DNA of 49,285 bases from Pseudonocardia sp. SCN 73-27 (GTDB lineage: Bacteria; Actinomycetota; Actinomycetes; Mycobacteriales; Pseudonocardiaceae). Made by a program: the position numbers and the translations under genes. Shown here one piece after another: positions 382-48,751 of the stretch. The notes under the pieces were generated by a model. The model had not been told where the DNA came from. It did not search any database and was given only the letters and a program-made list of their open reading frames with translations. Position 1 is the stretch's first letter; each line of letters starts with the position of its first letter. The DNA is taken from the NCBI GenBank assembly GCA_001725415.1, contig MEGH01000007.1, forward strand, positions 213,743 to 263,027, given 5' to 3'.

Positions 382-1808
382 CCGGAGCCCTCCTCGCGGA
401 CCTCGAGCTCGCGCAGCACCTCCGGGCCCAGCACGGTGACGTCGCCCGCGCCCATCGTCAGCACCAGGTCGCCGGGGCGCGCGATCCCGGCCAGCACCGC
501 CGGGACCTCCGACCAGCTGGGGACGTGGCGCACCGCGCCCGCCGGCAGGTCGACGGCGCCGGCGACGAGCGCGCCGGTGACCCCGGGCTCGGGGTCCTCG
601 CGGGCGCCGTAGACGTCGAGGACCACGACCTCGTCGGCCAGCGAGAGCGCGGCGCCGAACTCGGCGGCGAACAGCCGGGTGCGGGAGTAGAGGTGCGGCT
701 GGAACCCGACGACGACCCTGCCCGCACCGGCGACGGCACGGGCGGCGCGCAGCGTGGCGGCCACCTCCGTCGGGTGGTGGGCGTAGTCGTCGTACACGGC
801 GACGCCCGCGGCGCGGCCCTTGAACTCGAACCGGCGGCGCACCCCGTCGAACCCGGCGAGGCCCTCGATCAGGGCATCGACGGGGGCGGCCAGCTCGACA
901 CCGGCCAGGAACGCGCCGAGGGCGTTGAGGGCCATGTGCTCACCGGGGACGGCGAGACGCATCGCGAGCTCGACGCCGCGGTGCCGCGCCCGGACCCGGG
1001 CACCGGCGCCGTCGGGGCGGTGGTCGACGAGGACGGCGTCGTCGGCGCCGACGGCGGTGCGGCCGTAGCGGCGGACGGTGAGCCCGCGCTTCTCCGCGTG
1101 GCCGGCGAGCTCGGCGGCGCCGGGGTCGTCGACGCACGCGACGAGCACCCCGCCCGTCGGGATCCGGCCGACGAACGCGTCGAACACGGCCCGGTAGGCG
1201 GCCTCGGTGCCGTGGTGGTCGAGGTGGTCGGGCTCGACGTTGGTGACGACGGCGACGCCCGGGGTGTAGGCGGTGAAAGAGCCGTCGCTCTCGTCGGCCT
1301 CGACGACGAACACGTCGCCGCCACCGTGGTGCGCGCCGGCGCCGGACGCGGCGAGGTCGCCACCGATGGCGAAGGACGGGTCGAACCCGCAGTGCTGCAG
1401 GGCGACGGTGAGCATCGAGCTGGTCGACGTCTTGCCGTGGGTCCCGGCGACGGCGGCGACGCGGCGGCCGGTGGTGAGGTCGGCGAGCGCGTCGGCGCGG
1501 TGCACGACGAGCAGGCCCCGCTCGCGGGCGGCGGCCAGCTCCGGGTTGGTCTCGCGGATCGCGGTCGAGACGACGACGGTCGGCGGGCCGTCGAGCTGGT
1601 CGAGGTGACCGGCGTCGTGTCCGACCGCGACGTGCGCGCCCAGGGCCCGCAGCGCCATGACGGCGCGGGAGTCCTTGGCGTCGGACCCGGACACGGCGAC
1701 GCCGCGAGCCAGCAGGATGCGGGCGATGCCGCTCATCCCGGCGCCGCCGATGCCGATGAGGTGGACGCGGTCCCCCAGCAGCGGGGCGGGGGTGGTGGGT
1801 GCGGTCAC
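378..1808 (-). CDS. murC: UDP-N-acetylmuramate--L-alanine ligase MurC
   Basis: A 476-residue Mur ligase that adds L-alanine to UDP-MurNAc in the cytoplasm, the first peptide step of peptidoglycan precursor synthesis. The N-terminal nucleotide-binding motif [11 protein letters not shown] lies near residues 18-29. The ATP-binding loop GTHGKT is at 122-127, followed by the [11 protein letters not shown] motif of the central domain. Length is typical for the family. The GTG start (1808-1806) overlaps the murG stop as GTGA, and the stop overlaps the ftsQ start the same way, so translation is probably coupled across murG-murC-ftsQ. Confidence 0.97.
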
Positions 1809-2899
1809 CGGACTCCCTTGCCGGCCGTGACATCGAGGGCGACGTCGAGGGCGATGCGGGCGAGCCGCTCGTCCGCGTCGGCGTGACCCGAGCCGCGGGC
1901 CGCGGCGCCCATCGCGGCGAGCCGCGCCGGGTCGCCGAGCAGCGGCAGCAGCTCCGCGAGGACCCGGTCGCCGGTGGTCTCGTCGTCGGGCACCAGGATG
2001 CCACCGCCCGCGGCGACGACGGGGCGGGCGTTGAGCGCCTGCTCGCCGTTGCCGTGCGGGAGCGGCACGTACATGGCCGGCAGCCCGACGGCCGTCACCT
2101 CGGCGACGGTCGTCATGCCACAGCGGCCGAGGACGGCGTCGGCGGCGGCGTAGGCCAGGTCCATCCGCTCGATGTAGGGCAGCGGGACGTAGCCGGGGGT
2201 CTCGGGGCCGGCGGTGCCACTCCTGCCGTGGGCGTGCAGGACCGCGACACCCGCCTCGGCGAGCCCGGGCAACGCGGCCGCGACGGCGGAGTTGAGGGTG
2301 CGGGCGCCCTGGGATCCGCCGAACACCAGCAGCACGGGGCCGTCGGCGGGCAGCCCGAAGTGGGTGCGGGCCCCGGCGCGCAGCCCGGCCCGGTCGAGCC
2401 CGGTGATGGAGCGGCGCAACGGCATCCCGACGACCTGCTCGTGCGGGAGCCCGGTGCCGGGGACGGCGGTGGCGACGGCGGCGGCGAACCGCGCCCCGAC
2501 CTTGTTGGCCAGGCCCGCGCGGGCGTTGGCCTCGTGCACCACGACGGGGACCCGGCCGCGCGCGCCAAGGTAGGCGGGCAGCGACACGTAGCCACCGAAC
2601 CCGACGACGACGTCGGCGTCGACGTCGCGCAGCACGTCGCGGACGGTGCCGATCGCGCTGCGGACCCGGCCCGGCAGCCGCAGCAGGTCCTTGCTGGGCT
2701 TGCGCGGCAACGGGACCGGCGGGATCAGCCGCAGCGGGTAGCCGCGCGCCGGGATGAGCGTGGTGTCGAGGCCGCGTTCGGTACCGAGCGCGGTGACGAC
2801 GGCGTCGGGGTGGCTGCGGCGCACCGCGTCGGCGAACGCGAGCGCGGGCTCGATGTGCCCCGCGCTCCCACCGCCGGCGATGACGACCGAGAGCGTCAT
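1805..2899 (-). CDS. murG: UDP-N-acetylglucosamine transferase MurG
   Basis: A 364-residue GT28 glycosyltransferase that transfers GlcNAc from UDP-GlcNAc to lipid I, making lipid II on the inner face of the membrane. The N-terminal glycine loop reads [12 protein letters not shown] (residues 9-20), the family's GGGTxGHxxPA motif with Ser for Thr. The C-terminal donor-site region contains [12 protein letters not shown]. The ATG start (2899-2897) overlaps the stop of a 26-codon ORF that fills the junction with ftsW, and the stop overlaps the murC start. Length is normal. Confidence 0.97.
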
Positions 2900-2976
2900 C
2901 GCTCGTCCTCGCTGACGCTCGGCCGGCGCTGCGCGCGGGCGCAGTGTCCCCGGATCGCTCGCTGACGCTCGCTCAT
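2896..2976 (-). CDS. 26-residue coupling ORF between ftsW and murG
   Basis: A short ORF whose ATG overlaps the ftsW stop (ATGA, 2976-2973) and whose TGA overlaps the murG start (ATGA, 2899-2896). The peptide is Arg-rich, begins MSERQR and has RRPS at residues 17-20. It is the same length as two ORFs before the Rv2175c-like gene (32203-32360) and shares their ERQR and RRPS motifs. Its likely role is to carry ribosomes from ftsW to murG rather than to make a functional peptide. That is inference; the overlaps and the similarity are directly visible. Confidence 0.5.
2899..2976 (-). repeat. 77-base RTGA-bounded repeat, copy A
   Basis: The 77 bases from 2976 down to 2900 align without gaps to the tandem copies at 32207-32360. 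By eye 59 of 77 positions match copy C. The start (TGAG then GAGCGTCAGCGAGCGA) and the GGCCGAGC block at positions 53-60 are best conserved. Remove the unit and ftsW and murG would again meet in a plain ATGA overlap. Confidence 0.7.
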
Positions 2977-4355
2977 CGTCTGACCCGCTGGGCTGGCGGC
3001 CGCGCGGCCGGCGCGCGGTAGGGCTCCGGGACGGGCAGGCGCAGCAGCCGGGCGATGCGGCCCTGGCCGCCGTTGCGCAGCACCGCGACCGCCTCCGGCT
3101 CGTGCCGGGCGGCGTTGGCGAGCACGCCGAACGCGAACATGGTGACCACCAGGGACGTGCCTCCGGACGAGATGAGGGGCAGCTGCAACCCGGTGACCGG
3201 CAGCAGGCCCACGACGTAGCCGATGTTGATGGCTGCCTGGACGACCAGCCAGGCGGTGAGGGTGGAGCAGACGATCCGCAGCCACGGGTCGGCGCTGCGG
3301 GTGGCGATGCGCAGACCGGTGTAGGCGAGCGTCGCGAAGAGGGCGAGGACGGCGAAGGCCCCGATGAAGCCGAGCTCCTCGCCGATGATCGCGAAAATGA
3401 AGTCGTTGTGCGCGTTGGGCAGGTAGCTCCACTTGGCGCGGCCCTGGCCGAGCCCGACCCCGAACAGGCCGCCGTCGGCGAGCGAGTAGAGCGCCTGGGT
3501 GGCCTGGTAGCCGGGGCCGAGGGGGTCGCTGCCCGCCGACAGGAAGGACGTGATGCGGCTCTGCCGGTAGCCGGCGGTGAGGCCGAGGATCAGCGCGCCT
3601 GCGAGGCCACCGCCGGCGAGGGCGAGCAGCAGTCGGCCACGGGCGCCCGCGAAGAACAGCAGCGCGATGAGCACGATGCCGAGCGACACGGTCATGCCGA
3701 GGTCGGGCTCGAGCACCATCAGCGTGGCGAGCACCAGTGCGACCGGCACGACCGGGGACAGGGCGTGCTTCCAGCGGTGCATGACCTTGCGCCGGGTGGC
3801 GAGCACGTGGGCGCCCCACAGCGCGAGCGCCACCTTGGCGGGCTCGCCCGGCTGGAAGGCGAAGGGGCCCAGGGTGAACCAGGCACGTGAGCCGCCGCGC
3901 ACCGAGCCCAGGCCGGGGATCAGCACCAGGGCGAGCAGCACGGCACACACGATCAGCAGCACCGGTGACACGGCGCGCAGCGTCGTCGGCTTGATCCGTA
4001 GGCCCACGTAGAACACGACCAGGCCGACGGCGCAGAACATGACCTGGCGGGTGAACACCGAGTACGACGACCCACCGGAGGTGAGCGACTCGACCGACGA
4101 TGCCGACAGCACCATGACGAGCCCGAAGGTCGTGAGCAGGCCGAAGACGCCCAGGACGAGGTGCAGGGAGGTGAGCGGGCGGCGCAGCCACTGGGCGAGC
4201 GCGGTCCCGGCCCGGCCGATCGAGGCGCGGACCCCGGTGAGGGCCTGCGGCGCGGCGGCGCCCTTCGTACCCGCCTTGCGCAGCACCACCTTCGGCGCGG
4301 CCTTGCTGCTCGTGGCGCCCGTGCTCGAGGCGGCGGCCCGCTCGGCGGGGCTCAT
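2973..4355 (-). CDS. ftsW: Septal peptidoglycan polymerase FtsW
   Basis: A 460-residue SEDS-family polytopic membrane protein that polymerises lipid II into septal glycan with its partner FtsI. After a cytoplasmic tail of about 65 residues come about ten hydrophobic segments. Signature stretches are [20 protein letters not shown], matching the conserved FtsW LPEAHxDFIFAVIGEELG, and ISSGGTSL near the end. The ATG start overlaps the murD stop (ATGA, 4355-4352). The stop overlaps the start of a 26-codon ORF instead of murG directly. FtsW rather than RodA is indicated by its place in the dcw cluster. Confidence 0.95.
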
Positions 4356-30878: not shown

Positions 30879-31869
30879 GCTCGACGCCGCGGGCCTGGAC
30901 GATCCGGGCCTGCGCGCCGGGTACGCCGCGTGCCGGGCCCTGCACGCCGCGCACGGCCGCACCTACTTCCTGGCGACGCGGCTGCTGCCCGCGGGGCGTC
31001 GGCCTGCGGTGCACGCCTTGTACGGCTTCGCCCGGTTCGCCGACGAGATCGTCGACGACCTGTCCGACGGCCGCTCCGCGACCGACCGGGCAGCGGGCAT
31101 CGACGCCCTCGGCCGGGCCCTCGACGCCGCGCTGGCCGGGGCCGAGCCCGACGCCGGGACAGCCGCCGGGCCTGTCCTGCTGGCCCTCGTCGACACCGCC
31201 CGCCGCTACGCGATCGACCCGGTGCACTTCCGCGACTTCCTGGCGTCCATGCGGATGGACACCGAGGTCACCGAGTACGCCGCCTACGACGACCTGGCCC
31301 GCTACATGCACGGCTCGGCCGCGGTGATCGGGCTGCAGATGGTGCCGATCCTGGGCACGGTCGTCCCCCGCGAGGAGGCCGAGCCGCACGCCGCCGCGCT
31401 GGGCGTCGCGTTCCAGCTCACCAACTTCCTGCGCGACGTCGGCGACGACCTCGACCGCGGCCGCGTCTACCTGCCCGCCGACGAGCTGGCCGCGTTCGGC
31501 GTCGACCGCGACCTGCTCGAGTGGTGCCGTCGACGACGAGCCCACGACCCGCGGGTCCGGGCCGCGATCGCGCACCTCGTCGCCCGCACCCGTGCGGTGT
31601 ACCGGCGCGCGGCCCCCGGGATCGGGATGCTCGAACCGGTGTCACGGGCATGCATCGGTGCGGCCGCGACCCTCTACGGCGGCATCCTCGACCGGGTCGC
31701 CGACGCCGGCTACGACGCCGTGCTGCACCGCCGGGTACGCGTCGGGACCGCGCGGCGGGCGGCCGTCGCAGTACCGGGGCTGGCCAGGGCGGTGGCGGCG
31801 CGGACACCGGTCCGCGCCGCCGGTGTGGACGGACGAGTCAGAACGCCATCGCCTGCGCGCGACGCTTGA
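30856..31869 (+). CDS. crtB: Phytoene synthase (CrtB type)
   Basis: A 337-residue head-to-head prenyl synthase that joins two GGPP molecules into phytoene. Both Asp-rich sites are visible: [11 protein letters not shown] in the first third and [19 protein letters not shown] in the middle, with the substrate-pocket stretch [13 protein letters not shown] between them. The GTG start lies within the end of mptA. The C-terminal 32 bases overlap the 3' end of the convergent Rv2175c-like gene. Squalene synthase activity is an alternative, but the adjacent crtI favours phytoene. Confidence 0.92.
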
Positions 31870-32206
31870 CCTCCTTGTGCCGCCCGGCCTGCAGCGCGGC
31901 GACGGGCGTGCCGGGGAGGGAGTCGTCGTCGGCGAAGAGCCAGCGCAGGATGTCGTCGTCGGGGTAGCCGCCGTCGCGGAGCACCGTGATGGTCCCGCTG
32001 AGCCCCTTGACGATCCCGTGCTCGTCGTCGAGGAAGTCGGCCGGGACCACGGTGGCCCTGTCACGACGCAACGACAGCAACTGACCGTCGCGCACGAGCT
32101 GGTGCACGCGGCTGACGGGGATGGACAACTTCTGGGCGACGTCGGCGACCGGAACGGTCACGACGTCGTCGGAGAGCACCGATTCGGCACCCGAGACCTC
32201 ACTCAC
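31838..32206 (-). CDS. Rv2175c-like helix-turn-helix DNA-binding protein
   Basis: A protein of about 122 residues with a winged/HTH segment ([29 protein letters not shown]) followed by a conserved domain ([28 protein letters not shown]) and the end KRRAQAMAF, close to M. tuberculosis Rv2175c as I remember it. Rv2175c binds DNA and is a substrate of the kinase PknL, whose homologue is divergently encoded next door. The GTG at 32206 overlaps the stop of a 26-codon ORF in a tandem repeat; longer in-frame readings would enter that repeat. The 3' end overlaps crtB. Confidence 0.88.
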
Positions 32207-32283
32207 CGTCCGGCCTCGCCGGAGCTCGGCCGACGCTTCGCGGGCACGCTGGGTCGACGGTTCGCTCGCTGACGCTCCCTCAC
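32203..32283 (-). CDS. 26-residue coupling ORF (copy C) before the Rv2175c-like gene
   Basis: Starts with GTG overlapping the stop of the preceding copy (GTGA, 32283-32280) and ends in TGA overlapping the start of the Rv2175c-like gene (GTGA, 32206-32203). Arg-rich, with ERQR at residues 3-6 and RRPS at 17-20. Peptide function is not implied; a translational relay is the simplest reading. Confidence 0.45.
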   Translation of the reverse strand: MRERQRANRRPSVPAKRRPSSGEAGR

Positions 32284-32360
32284 TGTCCGGCCTCGCCGGA
32301 GCTCGGCCGACGCTTCGCGGGCACGCTGTGTCGTCGGTTCCTTCGCTGACGCTCACTCAC
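32207..32360 (-). repeat. Tandem pair of the 77-base RTGA-bounded repeat
   Basis: Two gap-free 77-base copies (32360-32284 and 32283-32207) matching at 71 of 77 positions by eye. The unit is not a multiple of three, yet each copy restarts its own reading frame through the GTGA overlap. A diverged third copy lies between ftsW and murG. Confidence 0.85.
32280..32360 (-). CDS. 26-residue coupling ORF (copy B), first of the relay
   Basis: GTG at 32360-32358, TGA overlapping the next copy. It shares the ERQR and RRPS motifs and exact length of copies A and C. As the outermost copy it is probably where ribosomes first load for the Rv2175c-like gene; 66 bases separate it from the divergent pknL start. 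Confidence 0.45.
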   Translation of the reverse strand: MSERQRRNRRHSVPAKRRPSSGEAGQ

Positions 32361-48607: not shown

Positions 48608-48674
48608 CCCGGCCTCCCCTCACCGTCGTCGTTCGGACGGTGCGGACGCTAGGGCAGCGCACCGACAGTTCCGC

Positions 48675-48735
48675 GCGACAGCAGCGACAGCAGCGACAGC
48701 AGCGACAGCAGCGACAGCAGCGACAGCAGCGACAG
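48675..48735. repeat. 9-base tandem repeat (GCGACAGCA)
   Basis: Six full copies and a partial seventh of GCGACAGCA, non-coding, between the 3' end of the NYN-domain gene and the start of the small Cys-rich gene. No spacers are present, so this is a minisatellite, not a CRISPR array. Confidence 0.9.
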
Positions 48736-48751
48736 GGGTGACGGGAGAACG

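Follow-up and report, generated by a model that had tools for sequence, protein, structure and literature searches.

A probable MIRU-like mobile repeat at stop-start junctions outside Mycobacterium

We asked what separates ftsW from murG in a 49,285-nucleotide stretch of Pseudonocardia sp. SCN 73-27 (hereafter the window, numbered from its first letter), where 77 bases lie between two ATGA motifs. An initial annotation, made from the letters alone, had described these bases as carrying an Arg-rich ORF of 26 residues that overlaps both genes, and had proposed an element that propagates by duplicating RTGA junctions without breaking translational coupling. The sequence, its ORFs and Pfam confirmed the coordinates, lengths and anatomy of this description (Table 1): the TGA-to-TGA distance at the junction is 77, and the mini-ORF holds 7 Arg in its 26 codons. 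A dispersed element of 77 bp accounts for the 81 bases at 2896-2976, which form one copy of it; it is very probably a MIRU-like short mobile repeat of stop-start junctions, found here outside Mycobacterium.

Table 1. Element copies, their parts and neighbouring genes in the window
Feature	Position	Strand	Detail
Candidate coupling element, single copy, 77-bp class	2896..2976	minus	left ATGA 2976-2973 = ftsW stop; right ATGA 2899-2896 = murG start
26-codon mini-ORF	2896..2976	minus	own ATG overlaps ftsW stop; own TGA overlaps murG start
GAGG, Shine-Dalgarno-like, carried by the element	2907..2910	minus	7 nt before murG ATG; from sequence
ftsW, gene upstream of the element	2973..4355	minus	PF01098
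murG, gene downstream of the element	1805..2899	minus	PF03033 + PF04101
Element copy 1 of tandem pair	32283..32360	minus	left GTGA 32360-32357; TGA-to-TGA 77
Element copy 2 of tandem pair	32206..32283	minus	middle GTGA 32283-32280; right GTGA 32206-32203
Rv2175c-like DNA-binding protein gene, downstream of tandem pair	31838..32206	minus	PF18367 + PF21531 (31841-32206 scanned)

The same annotation had placed two more copies of equal length before an Rv2175c-like gene, at about 77% identity counted by eye. Both were found as a tandem 77+77 pair at 32206-32360, and the product of the gene that follows contains both Rv2175c domains (PF18367, PF21531). The estimate by eye was fair, BLAST giving 78% identity between the ftsW-murG copy and each tandem copy, and 71% in ungapped register to one of them. 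The number of copies at this site differs between Pseudonocardia genomes: G020 and G033 have none, G017 has one of 76 nt, and G023, G044 and the source genome of the window, G000, have two each.

BLAST of the ftsW-murG copy against its own genome gave twenty matches at E<1e-7, itself included, the best other copies reaching an E value of 1.6e-19. A profile built purely from the sequences of 19 own-genome copies (R1) gave 31 matches at E≤1e-3 and 38 at E≤1. The strength of the best BLAST matches, together with the 31 profile matches, indicates that the likeness between copies is not due to chance. The search that the annotation had proposed, in this genome and in other Pseudonocardiales, found the element to be widespread. 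The element consensus matched 43 of 60 Pseudonocardia genomes at E≤1e-6, own genome included, and R1 matched 135 of 397 genomes of the order at E≤1e-3, in 33 of its 85 genera. Across a sample of the phylum that includes members of the order, R1 matched 2 of 396 genomes at E≤1e-5, G000 and G119, both from this order. Searching a plasmid collection returned no good match, the best being two Mesorhizobium plasmids over 30 nt (E 4e-3), which we took as chance, rejecting carriage on plasmids; a phage collection contained no match to the element.

Relatives with R1 matches, placed by RegX3 identity, included genera g43 near Nocardia and g4 near Amycolatopsis and family f16 near Blastococcus/Geodermatophilus. 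The R1 family was present in the Nocardia-like genus, and a Mycobacterium-like genus (g31) gave one weak match (1.6e-4) in one genome. Among 28 loci outside Pseudonocardia, drawn from families f1, f2, f8, f15 and f16 out of many more matches, 24 had a mini-ORF whose terminal DTGA starts a further frame of at least 60 codons, a count made with no control set. The periods at these 24 loci were 77 (11), 80 (10), 74 (2) and 83 (1). In two loci (L102 and L114) the mini-ORF runs into a second mini-ORF of equal length, and in two others (L091 and L115) the anatomy does not fit.

We characterized the insertion sites using 174 unique copies from fetched loci, counting the 143 that were full-length and excluding the 31 that were not. 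Named RegX3 loci, matches weaker than E 1e-4 and 5 copies close to the end of a locus stayed outside this set, and decayed copies are under-sampled in it since most copies were taken from the top of score-sorted match lists. With TGA sought within 4 nt of its expected place, 141 of the 143 copies had it on the left, 135 on the right and 133 at both ends. The left tetranucleotide was ATGA in 88 copies, GTGA in 44, TTGA in 5, CTGA in 4 and none in 2, and the right one was ATGA in 115, GTGA in 11, TTGA in 8, CTGA in 1 and none in 8. Spacing from TGA to TGA was 2 mod 3 in 128 of the 133 copies (77 in 75 copies, 74 in 49, 92 in 2, 83 and 89 in 1 each), with the frame lost in the remaining 5 (75 in 3, 76 and 73 in 1 each).

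The copies formed 109 arrays, 21 of which hold 2 or 3 copies; two arrays had less than 300 nt of flank, leaving 107 sites, single or tandem and with TGA at both ends, whose ORFs were compared in sense orientation only with 624 control DTGAs taken from the same loci and strand. At 79 of the 107 sites, an ORF of at least 100 codons ended at the left TGA and another of at least 100 codons started at the right NTG, versus 12.2% of the control. For the downstream ORF of at least 100 codons alone, the figures were 97 of 107 sites versus 54.6% of the control DTGAs, and 23 of the 107 had no 60-codon ORF on one or both sides. Siting at stop-start junctions, for which the annotation had proposed a check, is supported. 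By Pfam the flanking ORFs are genuine genes: besides ftsW and murG they include GatC before an amidase and a pair of genes for CoA-transferases, while one copy follows a gene for a 49-kDa NADH dehydrogenase subunit and another precedes that for DXP reductoisomerase. Some copies sit at a stop only, with a downstream frame below 60 codons (L002, L063, L296, L327), or at a start only (for example L015 and L019). These copies retain TGA at both ends, with CTGA on both sides in L327, so the preference for TGA seems to belong to the element itself and not to stem from selection alone. On the strength of these few stop-only and start-only copies, the target of the element seems to be TGA itself.

Junctions that lack the element offer a direct comparison. 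MurG was found in 58 of the 60 Pseudonocardia genomes, and their ftsW-murG junctions comprised 6 with the element, 34 with a plain DTGA overlap, 7 with another arrangement and 11 with no FtsW motif in the fetched stretch; two junctions flagged automatically as carrying the element (G003 and G037) were reclassified as plain DTGA from sequence context, the match lying elsewhere or being weak. The six carriers hold the 77 class in G000, G023 and G044 and the 74 class in G015, G030 and G054. Of the 16 element sites in the own genome, 13 were compared with up to five relatives each, and 50 of 65 possible site-relative pairs gave a usable match. Twelve of the 50 comparisons showed a zero gap (11 at DTGA, one at ATGT), 8 showed 77 nt between the flanks and 2 showed 154 nt; the other 28 had small differences, other lengths or poor alignment. 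A zero-gap empty site was seen in at least one relative for 7 of the 13 sites. The plain overlap that the annotation expected at unit-free orthologous junctions was therefore seen both at ftsW-murG and at other sites. At the CoA-transferase site, for example, G023 has the empty sequence gagcgATGAgtttg and G000 has two copies.

The GatC site bears on which bases are duplicated. G044 is empty there (gagcaGTGAacgac), and G000 reads gagcaGTGA...gcgATGAgcgac. The GTGA of the empty relative recurs at the left end of the filled site, whose right end is ATGA, which implies that the left base is old and the right A was brought by the element; the start changes from GTG to ATG. Duplication of TGA alone would therefore suffice. 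Among 88 single copies, GTGA...ATGA (24) outnumbered GTGA...GTGA (6), the right base not being fully independent of the left. The annotation's propagating element holds in its siting and its empty sites, and its unit of duplication may be TGA alone in place of the whole RTGA.

We next considered what is preserved inside the element. Internal stops and synonymous changes were counted in distinct sequences no more than 30% off consensus (63 of 70 of the 77 class and 42 of 48 of the 74 class), with substitutions scattered at random as the reference; the scatterings ignore descent, and related copies are not independent. Internal stops occurred in 2 of 63 copies of the 77 class versus 18.7 expected and in 0 of 42 copies of the 74 class versus 7.3 expected, and 0 of 500 scatterings was as low in either class. 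One of the two stopped copies (L345) ends just one codon early, in TGATGA. The other, the first copy of the array at L002, stops at codon 5 and is the sole copy of the two classes stopped well inside; its site has no long downstream frame, as expected if coupling keeps the frame open. Indels point the same way, with the overall frame kept in 24 of 29 copies that bear one relative to the nearer consensus. The consensus sequences of the two classes differ by indels of -2 and -1, and the stretch between these is read in a different frame, open in both classes. In 128 of 133 copies a GAGG begins at -11 relative to the right start, which leaves 7 nt between the two. A Shine-Dalgarno-like tetramer lay in the interval -16 to -5 before 132 of 133 right starts, versus 60 of 109 left starts and 254 of 2400 control windows; shared descent contributes to these counts, and the common GAGG may reflect inheritance in addition to retention as a signal.

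The open frame could mean that the copies are small protein genes of one family, encoding a functional peptide, and the first residues (MSER.., MSEL..) do recur across families. However, the synonymous fraction in the ORF frame, 0.305 for the 77 class and 0.267 for the 74 class, is matched by the other five frames, which span 0.22-0.37, third codon positions are no more variable than the others, and the two classes yield different peptides from DNA that stays alike. The peptide had no Pfam match at E≤0.01. We rejected a conserved peptide given the lack of synonymous excess and the difference in frame between classes, and consider a functional peptide of any kind very unlikely. Few internal stops, no synonymous excess and class frames that differ yet remain open together argue that the open frame is kept, not the peptide. 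The element might instead be retained as a regulatory leader (an attenuator, an RNA structure or an internal promoter) that tunes the downstream gene. It does bring GAGG at a good spacing, and for mycobacteria the literature reports promoter activity of the MIRU-bearing senX3-regX3 region of M. tuberculosis (PMC4213456) and places 17 of 24 MIRU typing loci overlapping or within M. bovis 5' UTRs (PMC4128351). Against this, folding was only slightly better than that of shuffled sequences (z -1.64 and -1.48), the consensus fold had a covariation term of 0.13, almost nil, and no Rfam match was found, leading us to reject a structured RNA. The sites found empty in relatives, and the absence of a single common function among ten downstream and nine further flanking proteins scanned, also speak against a leader, which we regard as a rather improbable explanation.

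Other classes of short repeat were weighed as well. The Pseudonocardia element resembles REP/RAYT and IS200/IS605-derived repeats in being short, in being dispersed and in having a short fixed target, and also in duplicating only about 3-4 bp. Movement by a Y1 transposase is nonetheless most improbable, since the element has no strong hairpin or palindrome and a Pfam search of the 60 Pseudonocardia genomes found PF01797 in just 5, 4 of them among the 43 carriers; it was absent from the other 39 carriers, the own genome among them, and we rejected this transposase as the mobilizer. MITEs are defined by terminal inverted repeats and a target duplication. The element is likewise short, multi-copy and non-autonomous in appearance, with TGA repeated at both ends, but the ends of its consensus, TGAGCGAGCG and GCGATGA, show no terminal inverted repeat by eye. 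The element could also be immobile and of ancestral origin, having formerly occupied many junctions and been lost from the empty ones by precise deletion. On a tree of the 47 of 58 ftsW-murG junctions with an FtsW motif, three changes were required (3 over 5%-95% of bootstraps), and such a tree counts changes without by itself separating gains from losses. Yet the 77 class lies in one clade and the 74 class in two further positions on the tree, all surrounded by empty junctions, and precise losses leaving exactly DTGA would need to be frequent. We therefore give an immobile ancestral element little credence and read the three changes as three gains.

Short repeats of this anatomy are already known from mycobacteria, and the family described here occurs in Pseudonocardia and its relatives. 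MIRUs are widely used for typing tuberculosis strains, and we know of no explanation for how they move. Their original description (Supply et al. 1997, Mol Microbiol 26:991) reportedly speaks of DTGA sites. MIRUs are described as apparently mobile, with start codons as their insertion points and an internal ORF that is coupled at a -4 spacing (PMC12548453), as 46-101 bp long and scattered over 41 loci in H37Rv (PMC3914561), and as having 77- and 53-bp forms at senX3-regX3 (PMC4213456); these sources together with PMC2453075 also make them variable in tandem copy number. Published accounts have them confined to M. leprae and the M. tuberculosis complex (PMC4213456) or occurring in many mycobacteria (PMC12548453). 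The Pseudonocardia element is alike in length and dispersal (77 bp and 31 own-genome matches at E≤1e-3), in insertion at start codons with an internal ORF that overlaps the downstream gene and may be coupled to it, and in a tandem number that varies, with 2-3 copies in 21 of 109 arrays and 0, 1 or 2 by species at the Rv2175c site; mobility is presumed for both. It differs in its mini-peptide, which is Arg-rich versus the MTRAYDDAERSDEEESRR type of mycobacteria, and in its hosts, which by the R1 profile are Pseudonocardia and genomes near Amycolatopsis, Nocardia, Geodermatophilaceae and others. Among the literature matches listed, from a search with most subscription journals outside its scope, none reported an element of this kind outside mycobacteria.

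As a yardstick, we used named senX3-regX3 loci of mycobacteria other than M. tuberculosis. Several have inserts between two ATGAs, read as 53, 59 and 101 nt, and other species have a single ATGA; the phase of these inserts is no independent test because only 2 mod 3 periods were tried. The left ATGA was fixed by a flank shared with empty sites for L151-L153 and L155 and not for L158 and L163; in L158 another ATGA lies 26 nt upstream. The Pseudonocardia profile had no match in the senX3-regX3 inserts and gave 4 matches elsewhere in 32 loci (best E 0.0076). Pairwise similarity of four mycobacterial inserts to two consensus sequences ranged from p 0.013 to 0.945, with 4 of 8 comparisons below 0.05. 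The anatomy thus agrees in each respect tested and sequence kinship is not established, which is why we use the term "MIRU-like" and refrain from classing the element as a MIRU. The annotation could not name its repeat; a name by likeness of anatomy can now be given, and on sequence kinship the evidence is mixed.

A MIRU-like mobile repeat could work as follows. Insertion would take place immediately before the TGA of an NTGA read in gene sense, most often the DTGA of a stop/start overlap. The inserted unit, of 77 bp and also of 74, 80, 83, 89 or 92, begins with TGA and so restores the upstream stop. A mini-ORF of about 25-31 codons then starts at the old overlap and ends in a new DTGA overlap; 7 nt ahead of the start created there stands a Shine-Dalgarno-like GAGG supplied by the element. 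A ribosome could pass from gene to mini-ORF to gene, which would make insertion cheap even in essential operons. Features that can be read directly from the sequences are insertion next to TGA with restoration of the upstream stop, an open frame leading to a new stop-start overlap, the GAGG, sites that are empty in relatives, a tandem number that varies and an occurrence that is repeated or patchy. From them we infer that the mini-ORF is probably translated and coupled and that the copies likely spread by active mobility, the element being mostly a passenger of little apparent cost to its operon. This scheme suggests how mobile elements in general might persist in essential operons, by keeping an open frame and not a peptide. 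An abundant counterpart of MIRUs, though without evident sequence kinship, in Pseudonocardia and its relatives offers many species with filled, empty and tandem sites, and makes target choice, coupling and mobility open to study outside a pathogen. More speculatively, Pseudonocardia-type elements and MIRUs might be two branches of one order-wide class of stop-start relays, moved by a shared TGA-recognising host machine. Such a class, which we propose tentatively and with some doubt, would be defined by its action at the junction (entry at TGA, an open frame across, then GAGG and exit at ATGA) and not by sequence or peptide.

Several minor observations were made along the way. Just before regX3 in Mycolicibacterium sediminis (L166) lie tandem 53-nt units that are made of the start of the regX3 gene (its 5' end) and close with TGATGA, so that the canonical MIRU site here carries a relay repeat of local origin. 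A record titled as an Acidobacteria MAG (L158) carries MIRU-like inserts and a regX3 95% identical to the mycobacterial query, and is probably mislabelled or a mixed bin. At ten murG loci of Pseudonocardia (L239, L247, L258, L259, L260, L262, L264, L267, L268 and L277), one in each of ten genomes, a Gly/Pro-rich stretch lies upstream of the MurG motif in open frames of 1056-1358 aa, resembling a low-complexity N-terminal extension of MurG. Finally, the window contains at 48666-48746 a 9-nt tandem repeat, GCGACAGCA, of about 7 units (family D2).
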